Of a stretch of DNA of 23,288 nucleotides, positions 2,738-20,531 are shown one piece after another. The DNA is from a virus, in the IMG/VR virus record IMGVR_UViG_3300032268_000072, positions 1-23,288 of that record, one strand, 5' to 3'. Under the pieces are notes generated by a model. It was not told the DNA's origin, did no database searches, and was given only the letters and a program-made list of their open reading frames with translations. Within the stretch, counting starts at the first letter, position 1. Every line of letters begins with the position of its first letter. The position numbers and the translations under genes are program-made.

Positions 2738-4561
2738 GTGGCACTTTCTTTAGATGATATTAAAACAAATTATGACCGCTACAAGCAGGTTTTCTCTGAA
2801 AGAGATACCCGTATGGAGCAGGTTCTACTTGTTCGTAAGGGCAGGATGCGGGATGTATTCCCAGATTTATTTCCTGATGGTCCCTTTGAGAACCCTATTG
2901 TTGCAAATATGGTTGACATTGCAGCCCGTGATTTGTCTGAAGTTATTGCACCTCTTCCTGCCTTTAACTGCAATTCACCCACTATGGTTTCCGAAAAAGA
3001 ACGCAAGAAGGCTGATAAGCGTGAGGAAATTGTAAACGGAATTATAGATTTTTCCGATATACAAACCCAGATGTTTACTGCTGCTGACCGTTATGTGTCA
3101 TACGGATTTGTTCCAGCACAGATTGAAATTGACTTAGATAACAATATGCCAAGAATCCGTTTCTTAGATTCAGTAGGTTGCTATCCAATCGTTGACCGCT
3201 TTGGCAAAGTTCATGGCATGTATCAAAGAATTAAGAAATCACTAGCAGAGTTAATGGCTGCATACCCAGAGTATGCCCACTTGTTATATGACAAAGACTC
3301 TACCAATACAATGCTAGAGATTATTCGCTACCATGATAAAGACCAAGATATATTATTTGTTCCACAGCGCAATAACCTAGTTATTGACAGAGCACCAAAT
3401 CCTATTGGTGAAGTAATGATTCGTATTATTCAACGACCATCCCTTGACTCTGAGTCCCGTGGACAATTTGACGATGTACTTGCAATTCAAGTTGCTAAGG
3501 CTCGTTATGCACTTCTTTCACTTGAGGCTGCTACTAAAGCAGTTCAAGCCCCCCTTGTCGCCCCACGAGATGTAAGTGAGATTGCCCTTGGACCAGATTC
3601 CGTTATTAGAACTGACCGCCCTTCAGATGTTCGCCGACTCTCTATTGACATACCACCAGGTGCTTTCGCTCAACAACAGGTACTTGAAGGAGAACTTCGT
3701 TTAGGTTCTCGTTATCCTGAGTCACGCACAGGAAACATTGATGCCTCTATTGTTACAGGTCGTGGTGTGCAGGCTCTTATGGGTGGCTTTGATACCCAGA
3801 TTAAAACTGCTCATGCAATGTTTGCCCGTGCCTTTGTAGAACTTATTGGTTTAGCACTTAAGGTAGATGAAACAGTTTTTGGTGACACAGAAAAATCTTT
3901 GCGTGGTGTACGCAATGGAGTTCCATACGCAATTAAATATAAGCCATCTCGTGATATAGATGGTGATTACACTGTAGATGTCCAGTACGGACTCATGGCA
4001 GGTCTTGACCCTAACCGTGCATTAGTATTTGGTTTACAGGCTCGCGGAGATAAATTAATATCTCGTGACTTCCTGCGCCGTCAAATGCCGTTCTCTTTCA
4101 ATGCAACACAAGAAGAAGAAAAGGTTGACACCGAAGATTTACGCGATGCAATGAAGCAGGCTATTGCATCCTATGCACAAGCAATCCCAGCACTTGCATC
4201 ACAAGGACAAGACCCATCAGATATTTTGTACAAACTTTCTACCGTTATTAATGAACGCCAAAAGGGTACACCTATTGAACAGGCGGTATCTGAGGCGTTT
4301 CAGCCACAGAATCCCCCACCTGGAGCAATGATGACCCCTGATGGCGTAAGTCCCGAAATGCTTGGGCAAGCAGGTGCGGTCCCTCCAGGTGAGGGGCAAC
4401 TTCCTCAAGGTTTAAGTGCTACAGGTCGTATGCAAGGTGTTGCTGCTGGACAAATAACCCCAGGCGGTAGACCAGATGTTCAGTCGCTTTTAGCAAGTTT
4501 AACTCAGAGAGGTGAACCTAATCTTCAGGCTTCCCTCGTTAGACGACTACCAGTTGCATAA
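2738..4561 (+). CDS. Portal protein
   Basis: A 607-aa protein directly downstream of the large terminase, with the size and layout of a phage portal: the dodecameric ring at the DNA-entry vertex that docks the terminase and later the tail. The N-terminus is charged and helical. The segment around residues 53-85 (ENPIVANMVDIAARDLSEVIA) and the following beta-rich part (VSYGFVPAQIEID) are typical of portals, and the middle has long Ala/Leu helices (KARYALLSLEAATKAVQ). The last 80 or so residues are rich in Gly, Pro and Gln and probably flexible. The start codon is GTG at 2738 with AGGA at 2729-2732. I saw no sequence motif that is decisive alone; position, length and composition support the call. 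Confidence 0.85.
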   Translation: MALSLDDIKTNYDRYKQVFSERDTRMEQVLLVRKGRMRDVFPDLFPDGPFENPIVANMVDIAARDLSEVIAPLPAFNCNSPTMVSEKERKKADKREEIVNGIIDFSDIQTQMFTAADRYVSYGFVPAQIEIDLDNNMPRIRFLDSVGCYPIVDRFGKVHGMYQRIKKSLAELMAAYPEYAHLLYDKDSTNTMLEIIRYHDKDQDILFVPQRNNLVIDRAPNPIGEVMIRIIQRPSLDSESRGQFDDVLAIQVAKARYALLSLEAATKAVQAPLVAPRDVSEIALGPDSVIRTDRPSDVRRLSIDIPPGAFAQQQVLEGELRLGSRYPESRTGNIDASIVTGRGVQALMGGFDTQIKTAHAMFARAFVELIGLALKVDETVFGDTEKSLRGVRNGVPYAIKYKPSRDIDGDYTVDVQYGLMAGLDPNRALVFGLQARGDKLISRDFLRRQMPFSFNATQEEEKVDTEDLRDAMKQAIASYAQAIPALASQGQDPSDILYKLSTVINERQKGTPIEQAVSEAFQPQNPPPGAMMTPDGVSPEMLGQAGAVPPGEGQLPQGLSATGRMQGVAAGQITPGGRPDVQSLLASLTQRGEPNLQASLVRRLPVA

Positions 4562-4573: not shown

Positions 4574-4735
4574 ATGAAGAAGTCCTTATCAGGAGGAAAG
4601 AAGCCTAAGAACCAAGGTTCAGCAGGCAAGGCTCCAACCCAGAAACCAATGTTGGCTAAGAAAGCATCATCAAAGGGTGGCAAAGTATATTTCTCAAGCA
4701 ATCCAAGCGGAACTCGCGGTTCACGCAGTAAGTAA
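4574..4735 (+). CDS. 53-aa strongly basic protein
   Basis: ATG at 4574 follows an ideal ribosome-binding site and the frame ends with TAA at 4733-4735. The 53 residues contain 12 Lys and 2 Arg and no Asp or Glu (MKKSLSGGKKPKNQGSAGK at the start, GTRGSRSK at the end), with many Gly, Ser and Pro, so the chain is probably disordered and binds nucleic acid or an acidic surface. I do not recognise a family with certainty. Its place directly after the portal gene and its strong ribosome-binding site suggest an abundant virion or assembly component, for example a DNA-neutralising peptide; this is inferred. The 68-bp gap to the next gene holds nothing else visible. Confidence 0.8.
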   Translation: MKKSLSGGKKPKNQGSAGKAPTQKPMLAKKASSKGGKVYFSSNPSGTRGSRSK

Positions 4736-4803: not shown

Positions 4804-5259
4804 ATGGCAAAGGCTAAAAACGAAAATTTTAAGGTGTCCGCAACAGGCGGTGCTGGAACTGATGGACAACCTGCAAGTTATGCAGCAGGTATTGATGGCG
4901 CACAAGATTTTTATGATTTACAAACTCAAGCAAAAATGTCAGGACAAAATACTGCTCTTAATTTAAAAGCATCTAATCAAACATTTGAACCTAAAATTGA
5001 TACAAGTGGAATAGTCCCACTTAATGCCCCTACTCAATATCCAGAAGAAGGTGTTGATACTGGAGGAATACTTGGACCAAATGCTGGTGAAGAAGTTATG
5101 GCAGCACCCGCTATGCTTCGTGCACAAAATAGTCAAGACATTGCACAGTTAGCAGCAAGTCTACCTTTTTACGCAAAGATTGCAGAAAGTCCAAACGCAT
5201 CAAATTCTTTTCGTAATTGGTACCGTTATATCCGTAGCCAAGTTGAAGGTATCGGATGA
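4804..5259 (+). CDS. Hypothetical 151-aa structural-operon protein
   Basis: The start is supported by GGAAGG at 4792-4797. The stop overlaps the next start by four bases (ATGA). The first 100 residues are rich in Gly, Ala, Asn and Gln with no clear hydrophobic core (TGGAGTDGQPASYAAG), while the last 45 look folded and helical, ending NSFRNWYRYIRSQVEGIG. There is no signal peptide or membrane segment. The gene lies between the portal-linked basic protein and the 1945-aa gene and is translationally coupled to the latter, so a partner or virion role is likely. I do not recognise the family. Confidence 0.8.
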   Translation: MAKAKNENFKVSATGGAGTDGQPASYAAGIDGAQDFYDLQTQAKMSGQNTALNLKASNQTFEPKIDTSGIVPLNAPTQYPEEGVDTGGILGPNAGEEVMAAPAMLRAQNSQDIAQLAASLPFYAKIAESPNASNSFRNWYRYIRSQVEGIG

Positions 5260-8200
5260 GTTGGGTTAAAAACCTTGGCAGTATGGCAAAGACGGTTGTT
5301 GACTTTACAGGAGTACCAGGTTTAATTAAAGATTTATCAACCTCTGGTAGCAACGATGACCCTTGGTATGTTGATGGTGTTAACTTTGTAAAGAACACAG
5401 TTAAAGTAGCAACAACCCCAGTTCGTGCTGCGGTTACTGGTCTATTTGCTGCTGGTGAGGCTTCATACGAACTTGGTGGGAAAGTACGCCGTGAAGGTGT
5501 TGAAGCAATCCTTGACCAGCCTTTCATGTATAACAAATTTAAAGCACCAGGTGAATCTTATTCGGATTACACATTGCGTGTAGAAAACGAAAAAGAAAAT
5601 ATTTCCCCGTTTCAAGCAGCACTTTCAGTGCTCTCTCCAGGTCGCACCTCTGGGGATAGAAGCGGTTGGTTCCAAGAGTGGACCGACAATAACCTTAAGT
5701 TTATGTCTACAGGTTTTGATGTCTTTAACCAAGAAGATAGAGATACAGCCTTTCGTGACCAATACACAGGAAAATTTCTTTCTGGTATCGGAGATTTTAC
5801 TACCTCGGTAATTGTTGACCCATTAACCTTTGCAGGCTTTTTAGGTAAGGGTGCAGTTATTATTGCCAAGGCTCCAATGCTTGACCAAATTCAAGGCAAA
5901 ACAGCCCGTGCTGTATTTGGAAAATTTGCCATGACTGAGGAACGATTAGATAATATTCTTATTGAAGCACTTGATGGTAAGGGTGGAGCACTTACTGACA
6001 TTGACTTTCTTGTTGGTAGTAACGCTAGTGAGCAATATAAATACTGGCGCAAAAAGAAAGTTACAAACCCTGATGCAATGGCATATTTGTTTGGTCGCGC
6101 TGCTAGTAGAGAAGAAGTTGTAGATACTTTCCGTGCTGTTATGTATCGTGACCCAAAATCTATTTCAACGATTGCTTCAAAAGACGAAGAAGCAGCCCTT
6201 ATTTTAGATGCTTCAAATCCAATTTCTCATCCTCAGCGGCAATTTCTTGAAGGTAAAACAGATGGTGATTTAATCACATCACAAGAATACAATCGCGCTA
6301 CTGGTTCATATATTACAAAGTTAACTGATGAAGCAAGTGAATCATACGACCAGCGTTTTGCAACTGCATTAGCAGATACTCGCACTGGTGGTCAATTAAA
6401 ATATGGATTTAGTCGCGGACCTTGGGAAGGCAAACTTGCCCAAAAATCAAAGAAAGATGCCCAGGCTGTATTTGCAGAAGCAGATAGCGTAATTTTTCAA
6501 AAAACTAGCCTTCACCCAATAATTAAAGTTGTTAATTACTTTACCAAAGAATTACCAAGTGGTGTATTTAATGTAAACGATGGCGATTCTTATATTGAGT
6601 TTAATGCTTTTTTGCGTGAGGCTAATGAATTATCTAAAGGTCGTTTTGGTGCCCAAGCAGCATATTTTGCTGAAAGATACTTAAGTGATATTTCTACTGG
6701 TGAAAGAAATGCCACTATTCAACGGGCTGAAAAGGCTGCAATGGCTACATTGTTTCCTAACTATGACCAACAAACTATAGATAAGTTATACATGGTTTTT
6801 GATGCTCGTAGAGCATCTAGAATTAATCAACACCGCAACCAAGGTTTTGTTTCTTATTTAGAAAACGGTCAAGTTGTAAATGCTATTTCTCCTATTTTAC
6901 AACGAGAGTCAGCCAATACTGTAATTATCGCAGATTTAAGAAAATTAAAGCGTGCGATTGATACGCATGAAAGTATATTACCAGGACTTTTAGATGGATT
7001 AAATATAGAAGATTTAACTTTAAGAACTAAAAAAGGTTTAAGTACTCTTGCTACATTTAATGACATTTTTAAAACTTCAGTTCTTATGCGTCTTGGTTAT
7101 ACTGTTCGTAACCTTACTGAAGCACAATTATCTATGATGGCTAAAGGTTTTGCCCTACCAGCAATGGTAGCAGCAGGTGGACCAGATGCAGTAAAACGAT
7201 TTTTTACTAATCGCAAGGTTGGTTTTAATAGGTTAATTGATAATGTAAATGTTTCTGCTGGCAGAATTGATGATATTCAAACTCTTAATTATCAGTTTGC
7301 TTCAGGCACGGACAGACTTCGTTCTATAGAAATGAGTAAAAAAGAACTTGCTAAAGCAGTTGCTGACCGCATTGGAGATTTAGAAAAAGATATATTTAAA
7401 TTACGCCTTACTCCAGGTGTAGGACCACTAACTGCAGAAGATGAAATTCGTACTCTTCGTGGCGTATTATCTGACTTAGAATCTGTAACTCTTTATCACG
7501 GTAGCGCAGATGCAGCATTTCAATTAAATGAAGCAAAGGTTCTTGCAACATCTGCATCCCCTGCAATCGCTAGTCGTTACTCTGAGGGTTTTACAATTCA
7601 CTCAACTGAAAATTATTTAGAAACACCAACAGGTCGCCCTGGTAAAATTACTAAAGTTTCTGAAAGTATACAAGATGCTCGTAAAACTTTACAACAAGCA
7701 CAAAGTAATTTAACCAAGGCTCAACAAGAATTAAATAGAGTTGGTAAAACTCAATGGGATGTAAATTTATTACAACAAACCATTGATGAACAAAAGGCTA
7801 TCATCAAGCGTGCTGGCGCTCGTGAGCGTTCATCCGAACGCCGTGCTGCTACATTAGATAATGCTTCAGATAATTTACTAACAGACATGATTGCAGCAAA
7901 AAATGCTGGTAAAGAAGTTGAGATTCGTGTACCTAAAGGTTGGCGAAAAGTAGAATCACTTGATTTTACACAAATTCGTCTTGCCGAAGAAGGCGTTTTA
8001 GAAGTTACTCCAGAGTTATTTCGCCGTTCAGTATTTCGCGTTAAAGGTGAAATGAATAAACCAGTACCAGTACGAGTATATGGTGAGGCTTTATATTTAA
8101 CTAAATGGTCTGATATTCCATTAGATTTGCGTGAATCTGCTTTTGGCGGAAGTATTAATAATTACAAGCAATGGACTAAGGACAAAGGTTGGAGTAATAA

Positions 8201-11093
8201 TAACGACCCTGTTGTTAAATACATGCGTGAAAAAGGTTTTGGTCGGATAGTTGTACAAGATGATGCTCGTGCTGGTGGAGTATCTAATATTGTATTACCA
8301 GAGGCAGTTGCTAAAACTGGTCGCCAACGAGCCGTAGAACGCAGTATTACTGAAATGAAAGAGCGTAGCGCAGTTCAGGCTGCTGAAGATTTACCAATTC
8401 TTGAATCTAAAATGGATACACCTAAACAACGCCGCCTTGCTAGAACTGCTGCCCGTAAAGCAGCCCGTTTAAAAGAAACTTCAGTTTCTCCTTATTACAC
8501 AAGAGAAAATGTTGATGCCATGATTAACAATGGCGTTGAAGATGCTGCTGAAAATTTAGCAAAACTTTATACAATGGAACATGCTTATCTTGATGACATT
8601 TCTAGCAGGCTAGGTGCTCGCATTGACCGTGCTGAAACTAATGCTGTTAAACAACGCACTGGTTATGGTTACAATGAAATGACAATTAATGGAGTTAAGT
8701 ATACTGTTCCAAATACTTTCCAAGATGCTACATGGTTTATGGGTCGCACATCTGCTGAAGATACTTGGAACGCATTAATTGGTTCACAAGAAATGGCATT
8801 TTCAACTGGCATGGGTGCTAGAACAGTTAGTATATTAAAACCTAATGACCCTAAATATTTTGAGGGTTGGTCAAATATACTTAACTTACATTTCCGTGAC
8901 CCTGAAACAGGAATAATGGACCCATTGGTTCGTAGGATTCTTGATGGTGAAACAGACCAAGATATTCTTAATTGGTTTACTCGTACAAAAGATGGTCGTC
9001 TTTATGCCAATGATACATATACAACTCCTCGCCAGGCTTATGGTTTAACAGCCATACGGGGTGGAGAGTTAGATGAAGATTTATTAGAAAAAATTAATAT
9101 TACCCGTGGTGCTGTAAAATTATACATACCTGATGAGCAAACAGCATTATTTCTTAGCACTGCTACTCCAGGCAATAAACCTTTATCTGGCGCTGAATTA
9201 CAAAATTATTTGCGTGAAAGATTTGGTGTTAACCCAGAAAACTTGCCAGACATTAATGGGTTACTTGTTACAAGTAGTAAAGAGTTTCGTGACCAAGAGC
9301 GTTTAATTGATACATTTAATCGCCGTGTTATGCGCTTTCTTGGTTCATTACCAGAAGATGTATTTGCCCGTCATCCATTAGCAGTATCTAATTATAATCG
9401 TCAGGTTAAAACAAACATACAGAATATTGCTGATGCTAAAGGCACAGATAAACTTACTGCAGAGGAAATTAACTCAGCCATAAGAGGCGCAAGAGAAGAT
9501 TCTCGCCGTATTGTAGAACAAACTTTGTTTACTATTGTCCGCCGTAGCCGTGCATCATCAAGCCAAATAATGCAATTAATGTTTCCGTTTTTTGCAGCCT
9601 ATGAAAACACAGTTAAGCGTTGGTCGGGTATTATTGCTGAAAATCCACAGGCTGTAACTACCGCTGCTCGTACTATTGCCCAAGTTGTTAATGGTCAAAC
9701 TGTTGTAGACCAAGAGGGAAATCGTATTACAGATGCTAAGGACTTGGCTGGTGGTAAATACGCCAACTTGGTAGTTCAAGTTCCACAAGGATTTATTGAC
9801 TCATTACCAAAAGATTGGCAAGAAATTGCTAACAACGCATTTAAGTCAGTAAATATACCACTATCATCATTAGATGTTATTACCCAAGGTCAACCTGGTA
9901 ATCCAGGCTTTGGTCCTTATGCTGTATTACCAGCCTACTTAATTTTACGCGCTCGCCCAGAATTAGAAGAAGCATTTAAACCTTTGTTTCCTGCTGGTCT
10001 GCCACAGTCTGCATCTAGTTTATTTACTCCAGCAGCCTTTCGCCGTTTATCAACCATGTGGACACAAGATGCGTTATATGTTCGTACATTTAATCAAATG
10101 TTAAGGTATGAAACCTATAACTATAATGCTGGTATCAGAACAGATGAGCCTACATTAGATGAAGTTACAGATAAAACAAATAAATTTTTTCTACTTCGTG
10201 CACTTGGTTCAATATCTTTACCATTTGCAATTAGCCCAGAAATGGATTTTTACCAACAGACTTTCCGTCAATTTTTAAATCAATATGGACCTGGCGAGGC
10301 AGAGGCTAAGTTTCTTGAAATGTACCCAGATTACTTTGAGGCTACAGTAAGTCTTTCTAAATCACCTGGCAGCCTAGAGTCTAATATGGATACAGTTAGA
10401 AACTTAAAGAAATTCCGTGGGCTTATGGCAGAAGCAGAGTCTTCTGATAATCCAGAGTTAATTGGGTTTCTTGCTAATGATTTTGATGGTCAGTATACAT
10501 TTAGTCAGGCAGCCTACCAATGGCAGTATCGCCAAGGTGCATATCCTGGTTCTAAAAATACTTATCGCCAAAACCGTGCTCCAGAAGAACTACTACGCGA
10601 TGCAGACATTAAGCGTGGTTGGACACAATTTAATTCATTAATGGGTCAAATTAATACTTACAAAATACAAAATGGCATTGTTGCTGATAGTGACCCCCGT
10701 ATGGATATTATCAATGGTGCAAAACAATTATGGGTTCGTTCTCAAGCAGAAGAAAATTTTGACTGGTACTCAGAGTACATATCTCCAGATAGAGGTAAGT
10801 ATGAGCGCCGTGCTCTTGTTTTAAAGAAGGCTTTAACTGATAAAAATTGGATGGCACAAAATGGTGACCGTTCAGTAGTTAAGGCTATGAGTGTATATCT
10901 TGACCTGCGTGACCAAATGGCTTCAGTATTAAAACAGCGCGAAAGGGCAGGTGGTTCACAAACACTTAGTGCAAAAAGTAATGCTGACTTAACTTATGTT
11001 TTTGAACAAGTTAGACAACAACTTATTGCAGAAAGTCCAGAGTTTGAACAATTCCTAAATAGATATTTTATAAACGATACGGTGGTAGTTTAA
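5256..11093 (+). CDS. Very large (1945 aa) virion-associated protein, possible internal/ejection protein
   Basis: One uninterrupted frame, a quarter of the window. Visible parts: a moderately hydrophobic stretch near 175-205 (VDPLTFAGFLGKGAVIIAKAP); helical regions with a TSVLMRLGYTVRNLTEAQ segment near 605-622; LYHGS at 746-750; a coiled coil at about 800-865; YGEALYL at 942-948; KYMREKGFGRI at 988-998; a basic patch (about 1050-1075); and MFPFFAAYENTVKRW at 1442-1456, which resembles the FPF-x-N segment of large polyvalent phage proteins. The HGS, YLT and GFGRI-type segments are in the order of an ADP-ribosyltransferase-like domain, but this is weak. No RNA polymerase, lysozyme or protease motif was found. 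Its place between portal and scaffold, and its size, fit a protein carried in the head and ejected with DNA. An alternative is a minor head protein. Confidence 0.75.
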   Translation: MSWVKNLGSMAKTVVDFTGVPGLIKDLSTSGSNDDPWYVDGVNFVKNTVKVATTPVRAAVTGLFAAGEASYELGGKVRREGVEAILDQPFMYNKFKAPGESYSDYTLRVENEKENISPFQAALSVLSPGRTSGDRSGWFQEWTDNNLKFMSTGFDVFNQEDRDTAFRDQYTGKFLSGIGDFTTSVIVDPLTFAGFLGKGAVIIAKAPMLDQIQGKTARAVFGKFAMTEERLDNILIEALDGKGGALTDIDFLVGSNASEQYKYWRKKKVTNPDAMAYLFGRAASREEVVDTFRAVMYRDPKSISTIASKDEEAALILDASNPISHPQRQFLEGKTDGDLITSQEYNRATGSYITKLTDEASESYDQRFATALADTRTGGQLKYGFSRGPWEGKLAQKSKKDAQAVFAEADSVIFQKTSLHPIIKVVNYFTKELPSGVFNVNDGDSYIEFNAFLREANELSKGRFGAQAAYFAERYLSDISTGERNATIQRAEKAAMATLFPNYDQQTIDKLYMVFDARRASRINQHRNQGFVSYLENGQVVNAISPILQRESANTVIIADLRKLKRAIDTHESILPGLLDGLNIEDLTLRTKKGLSTLATFNDIFKTSVLMRLGYTVRNLTEAQLSMMAKGFALPAMVAAGGPDAVKRFFTNRKVGFNRLIDNVNVSAGRIDDIQTLNYQFASGTDRLRSIEMSKKELAKAVADRIGDLEKDIFKLRLTPGVGPLTAEDEIRTLRGVLSDLESVTLYHGSADAAFQLNEAKVLATSASPAIASRYSEGFTIHSTENYLETPTGRPGKITKVSESIQDARKTLQQAQSNLTKAQQELNRVGKTQWDVNLLQQTIDEQKAIIKRAGARERSSERRAATLDNASDNLLTDMIAAKNAGKEVEIRVPKGWRKVESLDFTQIRLAEEGVLEVTPELFRRSVFRVKGEMNKPVPVRVYGEALYLTKWSDIPLDLRESAFGGSINNYKQWTKDKGWSNNNDPVVKYMREKGFGRIVVQDDARAGGVSNIVLPEAVAKTGRQRAVERSITEMKERSAVQAAEDLPILESKMDTPKQRRLARTAARKAARLKETSVSPYYTRENVDAMINNGVEDAAENLAKLYTMEHAYLDDISSRLGARIDRAETNAVKQRTGYGYNEMTINGVKYTVPNTFQDATWFMGRTSAEDTWNALIGSQEMAFSTGMGARTVSILKPNDPKYFEGWSNILNLHFRDPETGIMDPLVRRILDGETDQDILNWFTRTKDGRLYANDTYTTPRQAYGLTAIRGGELDEDLLEKINITRGAVKLYIPDEQTALFLSTATPGNKPLSGAELQNYLRERFGVNPENLPDINGLLVTSSKEFRDQERLIDTFNRRVMRFLGSLPEDVFARHPLAVSNYNRQVKTNIQNIADAKGTDKLTAEEINSAIRGAREDSRRIVEQTLFTIVRRSRASSSQIMQLMFPFFAAYENTVKRWSGIIAENPQAVTTAARTIAQVVNGQTVVDQEGNRITDAKDLAGGKYANLVVQVPQGFIDSLPKDWQEIANNAFKSVNIPLSSLDVITQGQPGNPGFGPYAVLPAYLILRARPELEEAFKPLFPAGLPQSASSLFTPAAFRRLSTMWTQDALYVRTFNQMLRYETYNYNAGIRTDEPTLDEVTDKTNKFFLLRALGSISLPFAISPEMDFYQQTFRQFLNQYGPGEAEAKFLEMYPDYFEATVSLSKSPGSLESNMDTVRNLKKFRGLMAEAESSDNPELIGFLANDFDGQYTFSQAAYQWQYRQGAYPGSKNTYRQNRAPEELLRDADIKRGWTQFNSLMGQINTYKIQNGIVADSDPRMDIINGAKQLWVRSQAEENFDWYSEYISPDRGKYERRALVLKKALTDKNWMAQNGDRSVVKAMSVYLDLRDQMASVLKQRERAGGSQTLSAKSNADLTYVFEQVRQQLIAESPEFEQFLNRYFINDTVVV

Positions 11094-14437: not shown

Positions 14438-14893
14438 ATGGCTACCAATTACTACGCAGACGATGAGGAAGATGACGACACAACAACTGATGTTGTTGGT
14501 CAACTCCGCAAAGTTAATCGCTCACTTGAAAAACGAGCAAAAGAACTAGAACAGGAGTTGTCAGGTCTTAAGTCACAGACTCGTCAGCGTACTGTTAAGG
14601 ATGTACTACAGGCTAAGGGATTAAATCCAAAGATTGCCGCACTCATACCACATGATATAGAACCCTCAGATGAGGCTCTACTCAAGTGGGTTGAAGAGTT
14701 TGGCGATGTTTTTGGAATCCAAACTTCTACGGAAGAAAAGCCTGCAGAGAAAAGTCCAGAAGTTAAGGCTCAAGCAAGAATCAATAACATAGTCGCCACT
14801 GGCTCCGCGCCAGATATTGACGAAGATGCGTTTGCAAAAATTGCAGGAGCAAAAACTCGTGAGGACTTAGACACACTCCTTGGCTTTAACTAA
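14438..14893 (+). CDS. Scaffolding protein
   Basis: A 151-aa acidic, helical protein immediately upstream of the major capsid gene, the usual place of the internal scaffold that directs procapsid assembly and then leaves. The N-terminus is very acidic (YYADDEEDDD). Residues 19-52 form a heptad-like coiled coil (VGQLRKVNRSLEKRAKELEQ), then a small helical part with LNPKIAALIPHDIEPSDEAL, a Glu/Lys-rich linker, and a C-terminal helix ending LDTLLGFN that could contact the capsid protein. The start is supported by GGGAGAAGG about four bases upstream. There is no protease domain. The family could not be named from motifs; the assignment rests on composition and position. Confidence 0.8.
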   Translation: MATNYYADDEEDDDTTTDVVGQLRKVNRSLEKRAKELEQELSGLKSQTRQRTVKDVLQAKGLNPKIAALIPHDIEPSDEALLKWVEEFGDVFGIQTSTEEKPAEKSPEVKAQARINNIVATGSAPDIDEDAFAKIAGAKTREDLDTLLGFN

Positions 14894-14930: not shown

Positions 14931-16103
14931 ATGGCATATACCGACACCTCGGCTATTAGTGGTCTAGTACAGACCGCTTATGACCGTTATGTTGAATTTG
15001 CTCTCCGCTCTCAGCCGATGATTCGTGCTGTTGCGGACAAAAAGCCTGTACAACAGGCTATGCCAGGCAACTCCGTTGTATTCTCACTCTACAACGATTT
15101 GTCTGCTGCTACTTCAACGCTCACAGAAACAACTGACCCTGATGCAGTCGCATTAAGCAATGTTGACACCGTATCTGTAACTCTTGCAGAATACGGCAAC
15201 GCTGCTCTTGTAACACGCAAATTGCAGTTATTCTCACTATCCGATGTTGACCCTGCTGTTGCAGACATCATCGCTTTCAACATGGCTGACTCTCTTGATG
15301 TTGTAGCACAAAGTGCTCTTCGTCAAGGAACCAATGTTATCTATGGTGGAACTCGTACATCAACCGCAACTATCACAGCATCAGATACTGTTGACTCTGC
15401 TGATATTCGTAAGGTTGTTGCGAAACTTCGCTCAAACAAGGCTGTTCCTCGTTCAGGAAGCCTGTATTGGGTAGGTATTCACCCAGAGGTATCACACGAC
15501 CTTCGTGCCGAATCAGGCTCTATAGGCTGGCGTGACACCCACCAACACACTGATGCTTCTCTTGGCAACCTGTTCGCAGGTACAATCGGAACATACGAAG
15601 GCGCTTTCTTTGTAGAAAACGCACGCATGTTCTCTGCTAAGTCAGGCGCAGACCAGACCGCTCTTGCTACAACCACAGTAACTGTTGCTGGTGTATCAGC
15701 ACAGTTTACTATTGGTGTTGCTTCATCTGCAGTTATCGCAACTCGCGCTGAGGTAGGCGACAAGATTGCTGCAACTGGTATTGCATCTACTGCAAAAATT
15801 AGTGCAATCAGTACTACTGGCTCAACAACTACAATTACTGTAGATGTAGCCAATACTGCTGCTGTTACAGCAGGCGCGACAGTAACTGTTACTCCTGTAA
15901 CACGCGTATTCAGCACCCTTGTTTGCGGTAAGCAAGCATTGGCTGAAGCCGTATCACAGGAGCCAGGTGTCGTTATCGGTCCAGTTACCGATAGATTGAT
16001 GCGTTTCCGCCCAATCGGATGGTACGGTGTCCTTGGATGGAGCCGTTACCGTGAAGATGCGCTGTATCGCATTGAAACTGGTTCTTCAATCGCTGCTCTT
16101 TAA
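14931..16103 (+). CDS. Major capsid protein, N4-gp56-like, with inserted beta-rich domain
   Basis: A 390-aa protein after the scaffold gene with an ideal ribosome-binding site. The order of segments follows the N4-gp56 capsid family: N-terminal YDRYVEFALRSQPMIRAVADK, GNSVVFSLYNDL, TLAEYGNAALVTRK, FNMADSLDVVAQSALRQG, the central IGWRDTH...GTIGTYEGAFFVEN, and C-terminal VCGKQALAEAVSQ and GWYGVLGWSRYREDALYRIE. Between FVENARMF (to 234) and VFSTLVCGK (from 326) sit about 84 extra residues, Thr/Val/Ala-rich and beta-predicted (GDKIAATGIASTAKISAI), which read as a separate surface domain. The codons look richer in C at third positions than those of the 1945-aa gene, as expected for a highly expressed gene. 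It forms the icosahedral shell. Confidence 0.9.
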   Translation: MAYTDTSAISGLVQTAYDRYVEFALRSQPMIRAVADKKPVQQAMPGNSVVFSLYNDLSAATSTLTETTDPDAVALSNVDTVSVTLAEYGNAALVTRKLQLFSLSDVDPAVADIIAFNMADSLDVVAQSALRQGTNVIYGGTRTSTATITASDTVDSADIRKVVAKLRSNKAVPRSGSLYWVGIHPEVSHDLRAESGSIGWRDTHQHTDASLGNLFAGTIGTYEGAFFVENARMFSAKSGADQTALATTTVTVAGVSAQFTIGVASSAVIATRAEVGDKIAATGIASTAKISAISTTGSTTTITVDVANTAAVTAGATVTVTPVTRVFSTLVCGKQALAEAVSQEPGVVIGPVTDRLMRFRPIGWYGVLGWSRYREDALYRIETGSSIAAL

Positions 16104-16678: not shown

Positions 16679-16930
16679 ATGGCTGCTCGTAAACCGAAGA
16701 AACAACCCATTAAGCGTGTGCGTACAGTCAAAAATGAGGAACATACAGAACTAGAAATGTACTGTATATGGCTCAATGAATACTATCAATCATTATTAAA
16801 ATCTGGTTTTAAGTCCGATATAGCAATGGCGTTTGTTATGGACAAAGCATCATACCCACCATGGGTACAGTACAAACCAACTGAAGATGAGATTCGGCGC
16901 ATGTTTGATGAAGGGGATGGCGATGAGTAG
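16679..16930 (+). CDS. Hypothetical 83-aa protein
   Basis: ATG at 16679 follows AGGAG (16669-16673). The product has a basic N-terminus (AARKPKKQPIKRVRTVK), a helical middle with aromatic residues (LEMYCIWLNEYYQSLLKSGF), KSDIAMAFVMDKASYPPW, and an acidic tail (MFDEGDGDE). The alternation of a basic head and acidic tail is seen in other short proteins of this cluster. No membrane span or known motif. The next start overlaps its last eight bases. Confidence 0.8.
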   Translation: MAARKPKKQPIKRVRTVKNEEHTELEMYCIWLNEYYQSLLKSGFKSDIAMAFVMDKASYPPWVQYKPTEDEIRRMFDEGDGDE

Positions 16931-17012
16931 TCCTATTATCCCTGAGCCGATGTGGGGACTGCCCTCACCCACTGTAACTGATGAGGACATCTACGAAGAA
17001 GAGGATGAATAA
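16923..17012 (+). CDS. 29-aa acidic protein
   Basis: ATG at 16923 lies within the last codons of the preceding gene; the frame ends with TAA at 17010-17012, one base before the next ATG. The product starts MSSPIIPEPMWGLPSPTV and ends in Asp/Glu (YEEEDE). AAGGGGATGG at 16911-16920 could serve as its ribosome-binding site. The tight packing supports it as a gene, but it is very short and unassigned. Confidence 0.55.
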   Translation: MSSPIIPEPMWGLPSPTVTDEDIYEEEDE

Positions 17013-17013
17013 C

Positions 17014-17133
17014 ATGCCAGCACATTATGGAAATGAAATGATGAAATCAAAAGGCAAGAAAATGGCTAAGAAGTCAGGTAAGAAAATGGCTATGAAAAAA
17101 ATGGCTATGAAGAAAATGGGCAAGAAGAAGTAG
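17014..17133 (+). CDS. 39-aa Lys/Met-rich repetitive basic protein
   Basis: The frame runs from ATG 17014 to TAG (17131-17133). Fifteen of 39 residues are Lys and nine are Met. After MPAHYGNEMMKSKGKK the chain is a run of KKMA-like units that ends in three Lys. The DNA repeats AAGAAAATGGCTA at 17056-17068 and 17080-17092, so the gene seems to have grown by internal duplication. The sole acidic residue is Glu8. A protamine-like DNA-binding role is conceivable, as is a charged tag on a virion protein. The next gene begins on the last base of its stop. Confidence 0.7.
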   Translation: MPAHYGNEMMKSKGKKMAKKSGKKMAMKKMAMKKMGKKK

Positions 17134-17393
17134 TGGCAAAAGATTCAAGACTTGCAAGGGCTGGCGTATCAGGTTTTAATAAACCAAAGCGTACGCCAAG
17201 CCACCCAAGTAAATCACATGTAGTAGTAGCCAAGTCTGGCTCTCAAGTAAAAACAATTCGTTTCGGACAACAGGGTGTAAGTGGTGATAAAAAACCAACT
17301 GCACGACAAAAATCGTTTAAAGCACGACATGCTAAAAACATTTCCAAAGGGAAAATGAGTGCAGCATATTGGGCGGATAAGGTGAAATGGTGA
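17133..17393 (+). CDS. 86-aa basic conserved phage protein
   Basis: The start is GTG at 17133, overlapping the previous stop by one base; AAGAAGAAG upstream gives only a weak ribosome-binding site, so coupling is likely. The product is rich in Lys, Arg, Ser and Gly: SRLARAGVSGFNKPKRTP, then VKTIRFGQQGVSGDKKPTA, and a C-terminal SFKARHAKNISKGKMSAAYW ending KVKW. I know closely similar short proteins, with the FKARHAKN...AAYWA pattern, from aquatic phages, where they are uncharacterised. The His/Arg/Lys pattern suggests nucleic-acid binding; this is inferred. Confidence 0.8.
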   Translation: MAKDSRLARAGVSGFNKPKRTPSHPSKSHVVVAKSGSQVKTIRFGQQGVSGDKKPTARQKSFKARHAKNISKGKMSAAYWADKVKW

Positions 17394-17560
17394 AAGGTAA
17401 AGCATTTTGGGACAAGAAGAATCCAAACAAGACATCTACAAAACTGACTTCTGCACAGAAGGCTGCTGCCAAGGCTCGTGCAAAGGCTGCGGGTCGGAAG
17501 TATCCCAACCTTGTGGACAACGCTGCTGTAGCACGCAAGGTTAAAAAGAAAGGTAAGTAA
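17387..17560 (+). CDS. 57-aa Lys-rich basic protein
   Basis: ATG at 17387 overlaps the end of the previous gene by seven bases and the frame ends with TAA at 17558-17560, whose last base starts the next gene. A GGTG (17381-17384) precedes it. The product has 15 Lys and 3 Arg in 57 residues. It begins MVKGKAFWDKKNPNK, has a basic Ala/Lys helix (SAQKAAAKARAKAAG), and continues KYPNLVDNAAVARKVKKKGK. The AGRKYPNLVDN element is one I have seen in small proteins of uncultured phages. It is likely a helical nucleic-acid-binding or virion peptide. Confidence 0.75.
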   Translation: MVKGKAFWDKKNPNKTSTKLTSAQKAAAKARAKAAGRKYPNLVDNAAVARKVKKKGK

Positions 17561-17835
17561 TGGCAACAGGAACTGCAGGTAGTACATTTACTAGTGAACT
17601 TAATCGTTTAGCCAATGGTGGTACTTACCCTGCCCTAACCATTTACAAAGATGCACAAGGTGCTGCAAATGCCTACGCCAGTACATCTGGTTTAGGCATT
17701 ATTGCTGCCCTTAATCTTAAGGCAGATGCTAACCGCCAACCTAATAACTACAAAGGTTTAAATGCTATATGTAATGAACTTGCTAGTACCACCAATTTAT
17801 CAGCCGTAGTTGCTTTAAGGAGTATTAATATATGA
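17560..17835 (+). CDS. Hypothetical 91-aa structural-operon protein
   Basis: It starts on the last base of the preceding stop codon. The product begins MATGTAGSTFTSELNRLANG, has TYPALTIYKDAQGAANAYA, a small hydrophobic stretch GLGIIAALNLKA, and ends LNAICNELASTTNLSAVVAL. It is neutral and probably globular and helical, unlike the basic peptides before it. I recall similar short proteins just ahead of connector or tail genes in actinobacterial phages, of unknown function. Its stop overlaps the next ATG by four bases. Confidence 0.8.
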   Translation: MATGTAGSTFTSELNRLANGGTYPALTIYKDAQGAANAYASTSGLGIIAALNLKADANRQPNNYKGLNAICNELASTTNLSAVVALRSINI

Positions 17836-18725
17836 GTACCTTTACTCAACTAACAGACCGTGTAGAAGCGTTACTTCATGGCTATACAGAAAACACCGAG
17901 CCAACCTCATGGCTAACTACCAGCGCTACAACAGCATCAACTACTTTAACTGTTTATGATGCTACAGTAGTTGGGCGTGGTTATATTGAAATTGATGATG
18001 AAATTGTATTTGTTAATAATACAGACAATGTTGCTAACACCTTAACCCTTGCCCCATGGGGTAGAGCGCAGCGTGGTACTACTGCTGCAGCACATAGCAC
18101 TAATGCTAAGGTTACTGTAAGCCCATTGTTTCCACGACAAGAAATTAAAAATGCAATTAATGACACTATCAATGCTATGTATCCAATGGTATTTGCTGTT
18201 GCTTCCTATGATTTTACCTATGTAGCAGCACAGTATTCTTATTCAATTCCTGCTGCAGTAGAAAATATTTTAAGTGCTACCTATTCAATAGTTGGTCCAT
18301 CTAAAGAGTGGTTTCCAGTTCGTGCTTGGCAACTAGACCGAACTGCAGATACTACTGCTTTTGCTAATGGTAAAAGCGTATCCATATATTCAGAGGTAGT
18401 TCCTGGACAAACGGTACAAATTGCTTACTCTAAGCGCCCAACATTACTAAGCAGTAACAGTGATGATTATGCAACTATCACAGGCTTACCTTCATATTCA
18501 GAAGATGTGGTTATTTATGGCGCAGCCTTCCGTATGATTTCTTTCCTAGACCCATCACGACTTGGTTCTCAATCTGCCTCAGCAGATGTACTAGATGGCG
18601 TTAGACCTTCAGGCTCTGGTCAAAATGCTTCCAGATTTTTATTTAATATTTATCAACAAAGACTTAATGAAGTGGCGGATAACCAACGCCGTCAATACCC
18701 AATCCGTTCCCACTACCAAAGATAA
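17832..18725 (+). CDS. Head-tail connector/adaptor-like protein
   Basis: A 297-aa protein with two parts. Residues about 50-98 form a beta module (GYIEIDDEIVFVNN...WGRAQRGTTAAAHS) that also occurs in the next gene. The rest, from FPRQEIKNAINDTINAMYP, has the layout of a connector or tail-tubular A-type protein: an N-terminal helix, a beta-rich core (FTYVAAQYSYSIPAAVENI), and C-terminal helices with EDVVIYGAAFRMISFLDPSR and a charged end with RLNEVADNQRRQYP. No siphovirus tail-tube or tape-measure gene follows, so a ring between portal and short tail is likely. The family assignment is by layout and position, not by a diagnostic motif. Confidence 0.6.
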   Translation: MSTFTQLTDRVEALLHGYTENTEPTSWLTTSATTASTTLTVYDATVVGRGYIEIDDEIVFVNNTDNVANTLTLAPWGRAQRGTTAAAHSTNAKVTVSPLFPRQEIKNAINDTINAMYPMVFAVASYDFTYVAAQYSYSIPAAVENILSATYSIVGPSKEWFPVRAWQLDRTADTTAFANGKSVSIYSEVVPGQTVQIAYSKRPTLLSSNSDDYATITGLPSYSEDVVIYGAAFRMISFLDPSRLGSQSASADVLDGVRPSGSGQNASRFLFNIYQQRLNEVADNQRRQYPIRSHYQR

Positions 18726-18734
18726 GGTAAAATA

Positions 18735-20531
18735 ATGGCAGCAGGCGACCCAGGCTCAGTCAAGCGGAATTTCTCCTCAACCGCAGTAGAAACTTCGCTC
18801 GTATCATCAATAGGTTCACAAGCACAAGGACAATCAAACACAGCATTTATTGTCGCTTCTAATAGCGGTTTTCCATCAGTTCCTTTTACATTAATAGTTG
18901 ACCCAGATACCTCCAAAGAAGAGGTTGTAACGGTTACTGCTGCAAGCAGTACAACACTTACTGTTACTCGTGGTGAAGATAGCACACAAGGTGTAGCCCA
19001 CTCTGCTGGTGCTGTCGTAAGACACGGTGTATCTGGTAGGGATTTCCGTGAGGAACAAACCCATATTGCTGCTCGTGGTTATGATGCAGATTCTGCAATA
19101 CTTGCATTAGCATCCCAAACACATGTGCATGGTTTAGTAGCCGCTGACGGTAGCATAGTAGGCACAGATGCTTTACAAACTCTTACTCGTAAAACTTTAA
19201 CCTCTCCTACAATTACCAACCCAACCATTACTGGTGCTGGTGTTGATGCAAGTATTGTTTTTGAGGGTGCTACCGCTGATGCACATGAAACTACTTTAAC
19301 AGTAGTAGACCCAACAGCAGATAGAACAATTACTTTACCTAATGCAACTGGAACTGTAGCCCTTGTTGCAAATGTGTTAGCCCTTTCTGGTGGCACTATG
19401 TCTGGTGCCATTGCAATGGGTACTAGCAAAATTACAGGTATGGGTGACCCAACATTAGACCAAGATGCTACTACTAAAATTTATGTTGATACAATTTTAG
19501 GCTCTGCTACTGCAGCAGCAACATCAGCAACTTCTGCTGCTACAAGTGCAACTTCAGCAGCAACCTCTGCCACAAGTGCTTCTAATAGCGCTACTGCTTC
19601 GGCATCAAGTGCTTCAGCCTCAGCCACTAGTGCTGCTTCTGCCGCCACATCTGCTACTTCGGCTGCTGCTTCTGCTACCGCTGCTACAACATCTGCTACT
19701 TCTGCAGCAGCATCAGCAACAGCAGCAACAACAAGTGCAACCTCTGCTGCAAATAGTGCAACTGCCGCTGCCGCTTCCGTAGCCACTATTGGAACTTATG
19801 CAACAAGTGCTGCTACCTCTGCAACAAGTGCAGCAACATCAGCCACCTCAGCGGCTACCTCAGCAACTGCTGCAGCAACTAGCGCTACTAGCGCTGCTGC
19901 TTCTGCTACATCTGCTGCTGCAAGTTATGACAGTTTTGATGATAGATACTTAGGTAGTAAGACTTCTGACCCAACACTAGATAATGATGGTGGGGCTTTA
20001 ATAACTGGTGCTCTTTACTTTAACTCTGTAGTTGGAGCAATGAAGGTTTATGATGGTGCAGCATGGGATTTAGTAGCCCCTGATACATCTAACTTTGTTG
20101 ATAAGACAATCCTTACCGCTAAGGGTTCTATCATCTCAGCAAGTACGGCATCTACCCCTGTGGCTCTTACTGTTGCAGCAACCGATGGTTATGTACTATC
20201 TGTATCATCAGCAACTTCTTCAGGACTTGCCTGGGCAGCACCTAACCCTGGCGACATTACTGGTGTAACTGCTGGTACTGGTCTTTCAGGTGGTGGCACA
20301 TCAGGTGATGTAACCTTAAGCATTGATACAACCGTCACAGTAAATTTAAATACAGCACAAACTCTAACTAATAAAACAATATCAGGCAGCAGCAATACGC
20401 TATCCAATATTGGCAATTCATCCCTAACAAACTCATCAATTACCATCAATGGTTCATCTGTATCACTAGGCGGTTCTGTTACAATCGCTGGTGGAGCAGA
20501 TGAGATTATGGTATTGATGGGTGCTCTCTAA
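18735..20531 (+). CDS. Tail fibre with Ala/Ser/Thr-rich shaft
   Basis: A 598-aa protein. Residues about 50-98 share the beta module of the preceding gene (EEVVTVTAASSTTLTVTRGE...AHSAGA), followed by GRDFREEQTHIAARGYDADS, a likely attachment region. LTRKTLTSPTITNPTITGAG (from 150) and LTNKTISGSSNTLSNIG (from 544) are fibre-type beta repeats, and ATTKIYVDTILGSA precedes the shaft. Residues about 255-397 are almost only Ala, Ser and Thr in short repeats. The C-terminal part is Gly/Ser/Thr-rich with ITGVTAGTGLSGGGTSGDV and ends GADEIMVLMGAL. A trimeric fibre is likely. AAGG (18725-18728) is a modest ribosome-binding site. Confidence 0.85.
   Translation: MAAGDPGSVKRNFSSTAVETSLVSSIGSQAQGQSNTAFIVASNSGFPSVPFTLIVDPDTSKEEVVTVTAASSTTLTVTRGEDSTQGVAHSAGAVVRHGVSGRDFREEQTHIAARGYDADSAILALASQTHVHGLVAADGSIVGTDALQTLTRKTLTSPTITNPTITGAGVDASIVFEGATADAHETTLTVVDPTADRTITLPNATGTVALVANVLALSGGTMSGAIAMGTSKITGMGDPTLDQDATTKIYVDTILGSATAAATSATSAATSATSAATSATSASNSATASASSASASATSAASAATSATSAAASATAATTSATSAAASATAATTSATSAANSATAAAASVATIGTYATSAATSATSAATSATSAATSATAAATSATSAAASATSAAASYDSFDDRYLGSKTSDPTLDNDGGALITGALYFNSVVGAMKVYDGAAWDLVAPDTSNFVDKTILTAKGSIISASTASTPVALTVAATDGYVLSVSSATSSGLAWAAPNPGDITGVTAGTGLSGGGTSGDVTLSIDTTVTVNLNTAQTLTNKTISGSSNTLSNIGNSSLTNSSITINGSSVSLGGSVTIAGGADEIMVLMGAL
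19498..19925 (+). repeat. Ala/Ser/Thr repeat tract in the fibre gene
   Basis: About 140 codons are made nearly entirely of GCN, ACN and AGY/TCN triplets, giving units such as SAATSAT. The units vary in codon choice (GCA, GCT, GCC, GCG), so they are old or under selection at protein level rather than a fresh slippage array. The tract leaves long open frames in other frames and on the other strand that are not genes. Confidence 0.8.

Follow-up and report, generated by a model that had tools for sequence, protein, structure and literature searches.

In a freshwater phage, what are the minute genes for strongly basic proteins that separate the capsid gene from that of the head-tail adaptor, and do their products travel with its DNA? 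The phage is represented by an IMG/VR record of 23,288 bases (here called the window, meaning the whole stretch analysed). The gene order runs from the major head protein (14931..16103, + strand; phrog_1357, E 2e-82), which forms the left border of the island, through three small ordinary genes, the four small genes a29, KM39, b86 and b57, and a gene of 91 aa, to the right border, an SU10-type head-tail adaptor (17832..18725, +; PF24175 at 35.3 bits, cut-off 27), and then to tail-fibre genes. The acidic peptide a29 (16923..17012, +) has 29 aa and a net charge of -9 and is conserved in two near relatives, L002 and L006. KM39 (17014..17133, +; 39 aa, net +14) is rich in Lys and Met and belongs to a family ending ...KKMGKKK; b86 (17133..17393, +; 86 aa, net +18) starts at GTG and is an alpha/beta domain by prediction, ending in ..FKARHAKNISKGKMSAAYWADKVKW; b57 (17387..17560, +; 57 aa, net +16) is Lys-rich with two predicted helices. 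A further small protein, b53 (4574..4735, +; 53 aa, net +14), contains no D or E and is encoded directly 3' of the portal gene (2738..4561, +; phrog_104, E 5e-20). A probable head scaffolding protein (14438..14893, +) was recognised through weak matches to phrog_172 and phrog_648. The small basic genes sit within the virion module, both here and in near relatives.

All five small frames had been reported in a sequence-only reading of this DNA, and an ORF check found each of them with the same position, length and charge. The ORF finder begins the 39-aa frame at 16981; we place its start at 17014 because the homologue in relative L004 begins MPAHYGKEM. The start codon of b57 overlaps the final codons of b86 (ATGGTGA), which suggests translational coupling. 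The frames are very short, and those of the K/M type are of low complexity, as might be expected of spurious or non-coding frames. Set against this, the frames are kept in relatives, and the purifying selection that the earlier reading had asked about was found. When each relative was compared with the window by NG86, b86 gave the lowest dN/dS of the region (0.044-0.069), with values of 0.14-0.29 for b57, 0.14-0.33 for a29 (two pairs) and 0.06 for KM39 (one pair only); the capsid protein gave 0.13-0.20 and the adaptor 0.08-0.21. For b53, 72 homologues were found 3' of the portal gene, sharing the conserved motif KKPxNQG(S/T)AGK..GTRGS, and 151 close pairs gave a pN/pS of 0.26. The KKMGKKK tail of the K/M family stays constant while its AAA/AAG and GGC/GGT/GGA codons vary. 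Purifying selection together with conserved synteny refutes the notion of spurious frames for b86, b57 and b53, and for the set as a whole it can practically be dismissed.

The clustering of the small frames was then compared with chance expectation. Relatives were collected through the 86-aa protein and all window genes were mapped onto them, giving 40 syntenic loci (the window included) that each contain b86, the adaptor and g83a, the gene after that of the major head protein. A small basic ORF was defined as one of 30-140 aa with K+R of at least 25% and a net charge of at least +8. From g83a to the adaptor, the + strand of these loci holds 128 such ORFs (1.67/kb) and the - strand none; dinucleotide shuffles of the interval led us to expect 11.9. 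The + strand of the remainder of the 40 loci holds six (0.015/kb). The cluster is not due to chance.

The ORFs of the island fall into at least eight basic families, which replace one another between phages: the K/M-rich family, DUF6496 (42 bits, cut-off 24), families typified by 'RAGAILAAGARKAS', 'SSGxRKxH..LRKDGR' and 'MSVKGEKYKSKK', a DUF5872-like family, b57 and b86. The DUF5872-like family corresponds to phrog_14910 and phrog_17747; one member scored 24.9 bits, short of the 27.5 cut-off. Although the DUF6496 and DUF5872 proteins occupy the same island in relatives as the window's cluster, they are sequence families distinct from its small proteins and none was seen in the window's own island. 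In two loci (L033 and L038) b57 and b86 lie in reversed order 3' of the portal gene, the slot that b53 occupies in the window. Wherever DUF5872-type proteins and b86 occur together, they are on the same strand, including in unrelated phages (L002-L450, e.g. L263 3145-3569), and their distance is usually within 500 bases, the HMO-2011 group and the MAG set excepted. Of the 20 DUF5872-type records among the collected phages, 10 also carry b86 against 0.02 expected, a figure inflated by related records; phages with both span Roseobacter, Synechococcus and SAR116 hosts. In the literature, no paper was found that linked DUF6496 or DUF5872 with the other terms searched.

Both b86 and b57 belong to existing protein groups. 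b86 matches phrog_7595 over its full length (E 1.4e-36; residues 3-86 on profile positions 5-96 of 96) and b57 matches phrog_34011 (E 8.4e-27). We regard the two as members of these groups, whose entries give no function and are silent on location or mechanism. A tblastn search with b57 returned nothing from the phage collection, probably through the low-complexity filter, the PHROG match being strong. The best Foldseek matches of b57 were histone folds, at E 1.9 or worse and with a VIA Z of at most 4.5, and sequence profiles gave no histone match; we make no claim that it is histone-like.

The distribution of b86 is wide. It is encoded in at least 598 IMG/VR stretches and in 54 records of the phage collection, among them Roseobacter podoviruses (SIO1, P12053L and the CRP series), HMO-2011, the cyanophages S-CBS2 and KBS-S-2A, and Vibrio phage D274; in SIO1 the gene is present but unannotated. 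Identity is 50-93% across unrelated podo-, sipho- and T4-like phages. For the near relatives recent horizontal transfer was rejected as the cause of this high identity: synonymous sites of b86 are strongly diverged (pS 0.56-0.82), and the identity therefore reflects constraint. All 52 matches in a bacterial genome collection were in metagenome-assembled bins, which fits phage contigs binned with bacteria.

The invariant residues of b86 are N, K, G, RH, SA, YW and W. AlphaFold2 confidently predicts a compact folded alpha/beta domain (pLDDT 90.8, pTM 0.77) with a short helix, a beta hairpin and further helices. No solved relative was found by sequence or by fold, the PDB matches (baseplate ORF59 and ribosomal L24) being non-significant at E about 0.2. 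Among predicted viral structures, it resembles small phage proteins, one XkdF-annotated and one ChaB-annotated protein, ICP1 ORF125 and a Tunisvirus protein. Weak Pfam matches among 53 b86 members were to DUF5754 (36), Phage_tail_tube_init (25) and DUF6321 (14). In the literature we found two papers that name DUF5754 and no mention of DUF6321. The window's own b86 scored 14.4 bits against DUF5754 (PF19058), under the curated cut-off of 27.4, and the best of the 53 members reached E 7e-4. None of the three names was adopted, as the scores are below the curated cut-offs, but these families are possible remote relatives.

The sequence-only reading had proposed that the small proteins neutralise the DNA in the head as a protamine-like set. 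Four genes encode proteins of 39-86 aa with net charges of +14 to +18, and b53 lacks any acidic residue, features that would suit condensation and neutralisation of the packaged genome by bulk charge. The arithmetic points the other way. One set of the four basic proteins carries +62 in 25.5 kDa, and half-neutralising a 40-kb genome (about 80,000 phosphates) would take about 640 sets. With 16.4 MDa of protein for a genome of 25.9 MDa, such a copy number is implausible. Furthermore, b86 is a predicted folded domain with specific invariant residues rather than a charge-only polymer. We consider bulk neutralisation very improbable.

The best-known small basic proteins that a phage packs and injects together with its DNA are the internal proteins of T4, described mostly from T4-like phages. 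Those encoded by T4 ipII and ipIII start with MKTYQEFIAE. The first ten residues of IPIII suffice for head entry; targeting involves residues 4 and 7, and processing involves residues 8 and 10 (PMC9026906). On T4-like contigs, several b86 homologues start with an N-terminus of this type: MKKFKQFAEE/KDPRLARAGV in L191, MKTFKTFCEE/KDSRLDKAGV in L198, MIKFRDFINE/EKDSRLKQAGV in L243 and MLTFKEYLKE/TEAQLKAAGV in L395, where the stroke marks the predicted cleavage. In all four, positions 4 and 7 are aromatic and position 10 is E; the homologue in L194 has Leu at position 7. The start sites in L191, L194, L198 and L395 are supported by the preceding gene, which ends within two bases of them. The b86 core starts immediately after the predicted cleavage Glu and, judging from these sequences, cleavage there would free almost exactly the solo form of b86. 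The L395 contig encodes gp23 (7.5e-140), the T4 scaffold (1.5e-64) and the gp21 protease (2.6e-36), and the gp21 protease is also present on that of L243. In the initial set of seven T4-like contigs, 18 of 131 genes have a strict form of the propeptide motif, compared with 11/872 and 3/1115 elsewhere. The T4-like marine contig L191 has an unbroken run of small genes at 4930-8642 whose products start with T4-type targeting sequences; one reading frame of the run (6491-7387) has a weak ADP-ribosyltransferase match, recalling T4 Alt.

These propeptides bear on whether the proteins ever enter a virion. They might instead be late intracellular nucleic-acid-binding proteins, acting in packaging, transcription or host takeover, with the propeptide fusions a special adaptation of T4-like phages; the basic charge would suit such a role, and 352 of 360 b86 loci have no targeting signal. 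Nevertheless, where the phage has the propeptide system, b86 nearly always carries it. T4-type neighbours accompany seven of the eight propeptide-bearing loci against one of the 352 others (seven with both features, one and one discordant, and 351 with neither; L243 and L391 are one contig entered as two rows). This table is partly circular, some T4-like markers having been drawn from the L191 neighbourhood, a circularity from which the gp21 and gp23 results are independent. Seen from the T4-like side, seven of eight loci carry the propeptide on b86, and the exception, L259, has the close variant MILDSFKKFLEEKD. On balance a purely intracellular role appears quite unlikely.

A second association with the head came from Vibrio phage ICP1. 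Within the ORF set searched, the b86 profile matches residues 190-264 of ICP1 gp125 (E 2.8e-5), a protein whose residues 37-160 are an XkdF/Peptidase_S78_2 domain scoring above cut-off. The C-terminal domain of this capsid protease resembles b86 in profile and structure across nearly all of its length but is fused to the protease and shares about 30% identity with b86. A paper on the ICP1 capsid does not mention gp125. No XkdF protease was found in the window's near-identical relative, P12053L, HMO-2011 or ct2KA10. In Methylophilales phage Melnitz-3 (L303 4342-6294), a protein of 650 aa starts with MKKFSEIIEA and ends in a b86-like domain; it also has a cytidylyltransferase-like domain and DUF5824, and may be an enzyme that travels inside the head.

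On the capsid protease, the domain may act only in the prohead. Extended to b86 and its companions, this would make them head-assembly factors that bind scaffold or protease and aid encapsidation, and that are absent from or minor in the mature virion, the domain in ICP1 being the part through which the protease is encapsidated. The fusion to an XkdF-type protein and the adjacency of the window genes to capsid, scaffold and adaptor genes are both consistent with this. On the other hand, propeptide-bearing internal proteins of T4 remain in the mature head (PMC9026906), and not every b86 gene has recognised capsid genes nearby; those of P12053L and SIO1, for example, come last in the structural module. 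We judge a role confined to assembly to be unlikely.

The reading that we favour, with a probability of roughly 60%, is that the cluster encodes small internal-head proteins of the T4 type, which accompany the DNA and are probably ejected. The suggestion in the sequence-only reading that the proteins reside in the head or are ejected with the DNA thus gains indirect support, from T4-type propeptides on b86 homologues within arrays of propeptide genes on T4-like contigs, from the b86-like domain that ends the ICP1 capsid protease and from the position of the window genes in the virion module, whereas its protamine-like neutralisation is not supported. For the window's own phage we infer the head location; for b57, KM39, b53 and a29, charge, position and conservation suggest it. 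In the literature searched, which included few subscription papers, we came across no virion proteome that names b86; small proteins are often missed. Under the favoured reading, the small basic proteins would be made late. In T4-like phages the propeptide would take b86 into the assembling head; in the window's phage entry would occur by binding to scaffold, portal or DNA. The proteins would remain with the packaged DNA, in numbers from tens to a few hundred, and would probably be ejected along with it. Like T4 internal proteins, they would help to organise the genome, to eject it or to protect it early on, rather than neutralise it in the manner of protamines.

The likeness to IPI, IPII and IPIII (and Alt) of T4 is that of a small, basic, variable, head-associated set. 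The T4 proteins are basic, with a copy number of about 360, and one of them, IPI, is an inhibitor of a restriction enzyme (PMC9026906); some island proteins could shield incoming DNA in a similar manner. The b86 homologues on T4-like contigs share the type of 10-residue N-terminus and adjoin genes that have it, but their mature parts showed no match to T4 proteins. The window's b86 begins VAKDSRLARAGV and has no N-terminal propeptide extension, and no gp21-type prohead protease (PF03420) was detected in the window or in a near-identical relative of 39.9 kb, possibly incomplete. In addition, b86 is far more conserved than the internal proteins are said to be (PMC9026906). With neither propeptide nor protease seen, the window's b86 would at most work like a T4 internal protein, and we do not file it as a member of that group.

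Small basic internal head proteins are already known; what is new is that phages outside the T4 group appear to have an island of such genes, exchangeable among themselves and including one that is hyperconserved from lineage to lineage. The data suggest that many non-T4 phages carry an equivalent exchangeable set of which one member is conserved across unrelated lineages. More tentatively, b86 could be a portable module for head entry or genome companionship, found solo in podo- and siphophages, preceded by a propeptide in T4-like ones and joined to the capsid protease in those like ICP1, and anchoring a shared pool with DUF5872, DUF6496 and b57 that is exchanged as cassettes among aquatic phages. 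If this were true, few small virion proteins of tailed phages would be as conserved as b86, which is still unnamed. Many 'hypothetical proteins' of marine and freshwater phages, growable isolates included, become a set that can be tested in virions.

Several other features of the window were noted. The leader 5' of the terminase gene (640-865) has an unusually good predicted RNA fold (MFE -77 kcal/mol, z -4.0) and no match in Rfam, and from about 215 to 865 there is no convincing gene. Between the portal and scaffold genes, 5256-11093 encodes a protein of 1945 aa related to phrog_10618, a group without assigned function; it is possibly a large ejected protein. A relative of the adaptor is present in Streptomyces phage FlowerPower, and the tail-fibre-like protein encoded at 18735-20531 contains a long stretch of Ala/Ser/Thr repeats.
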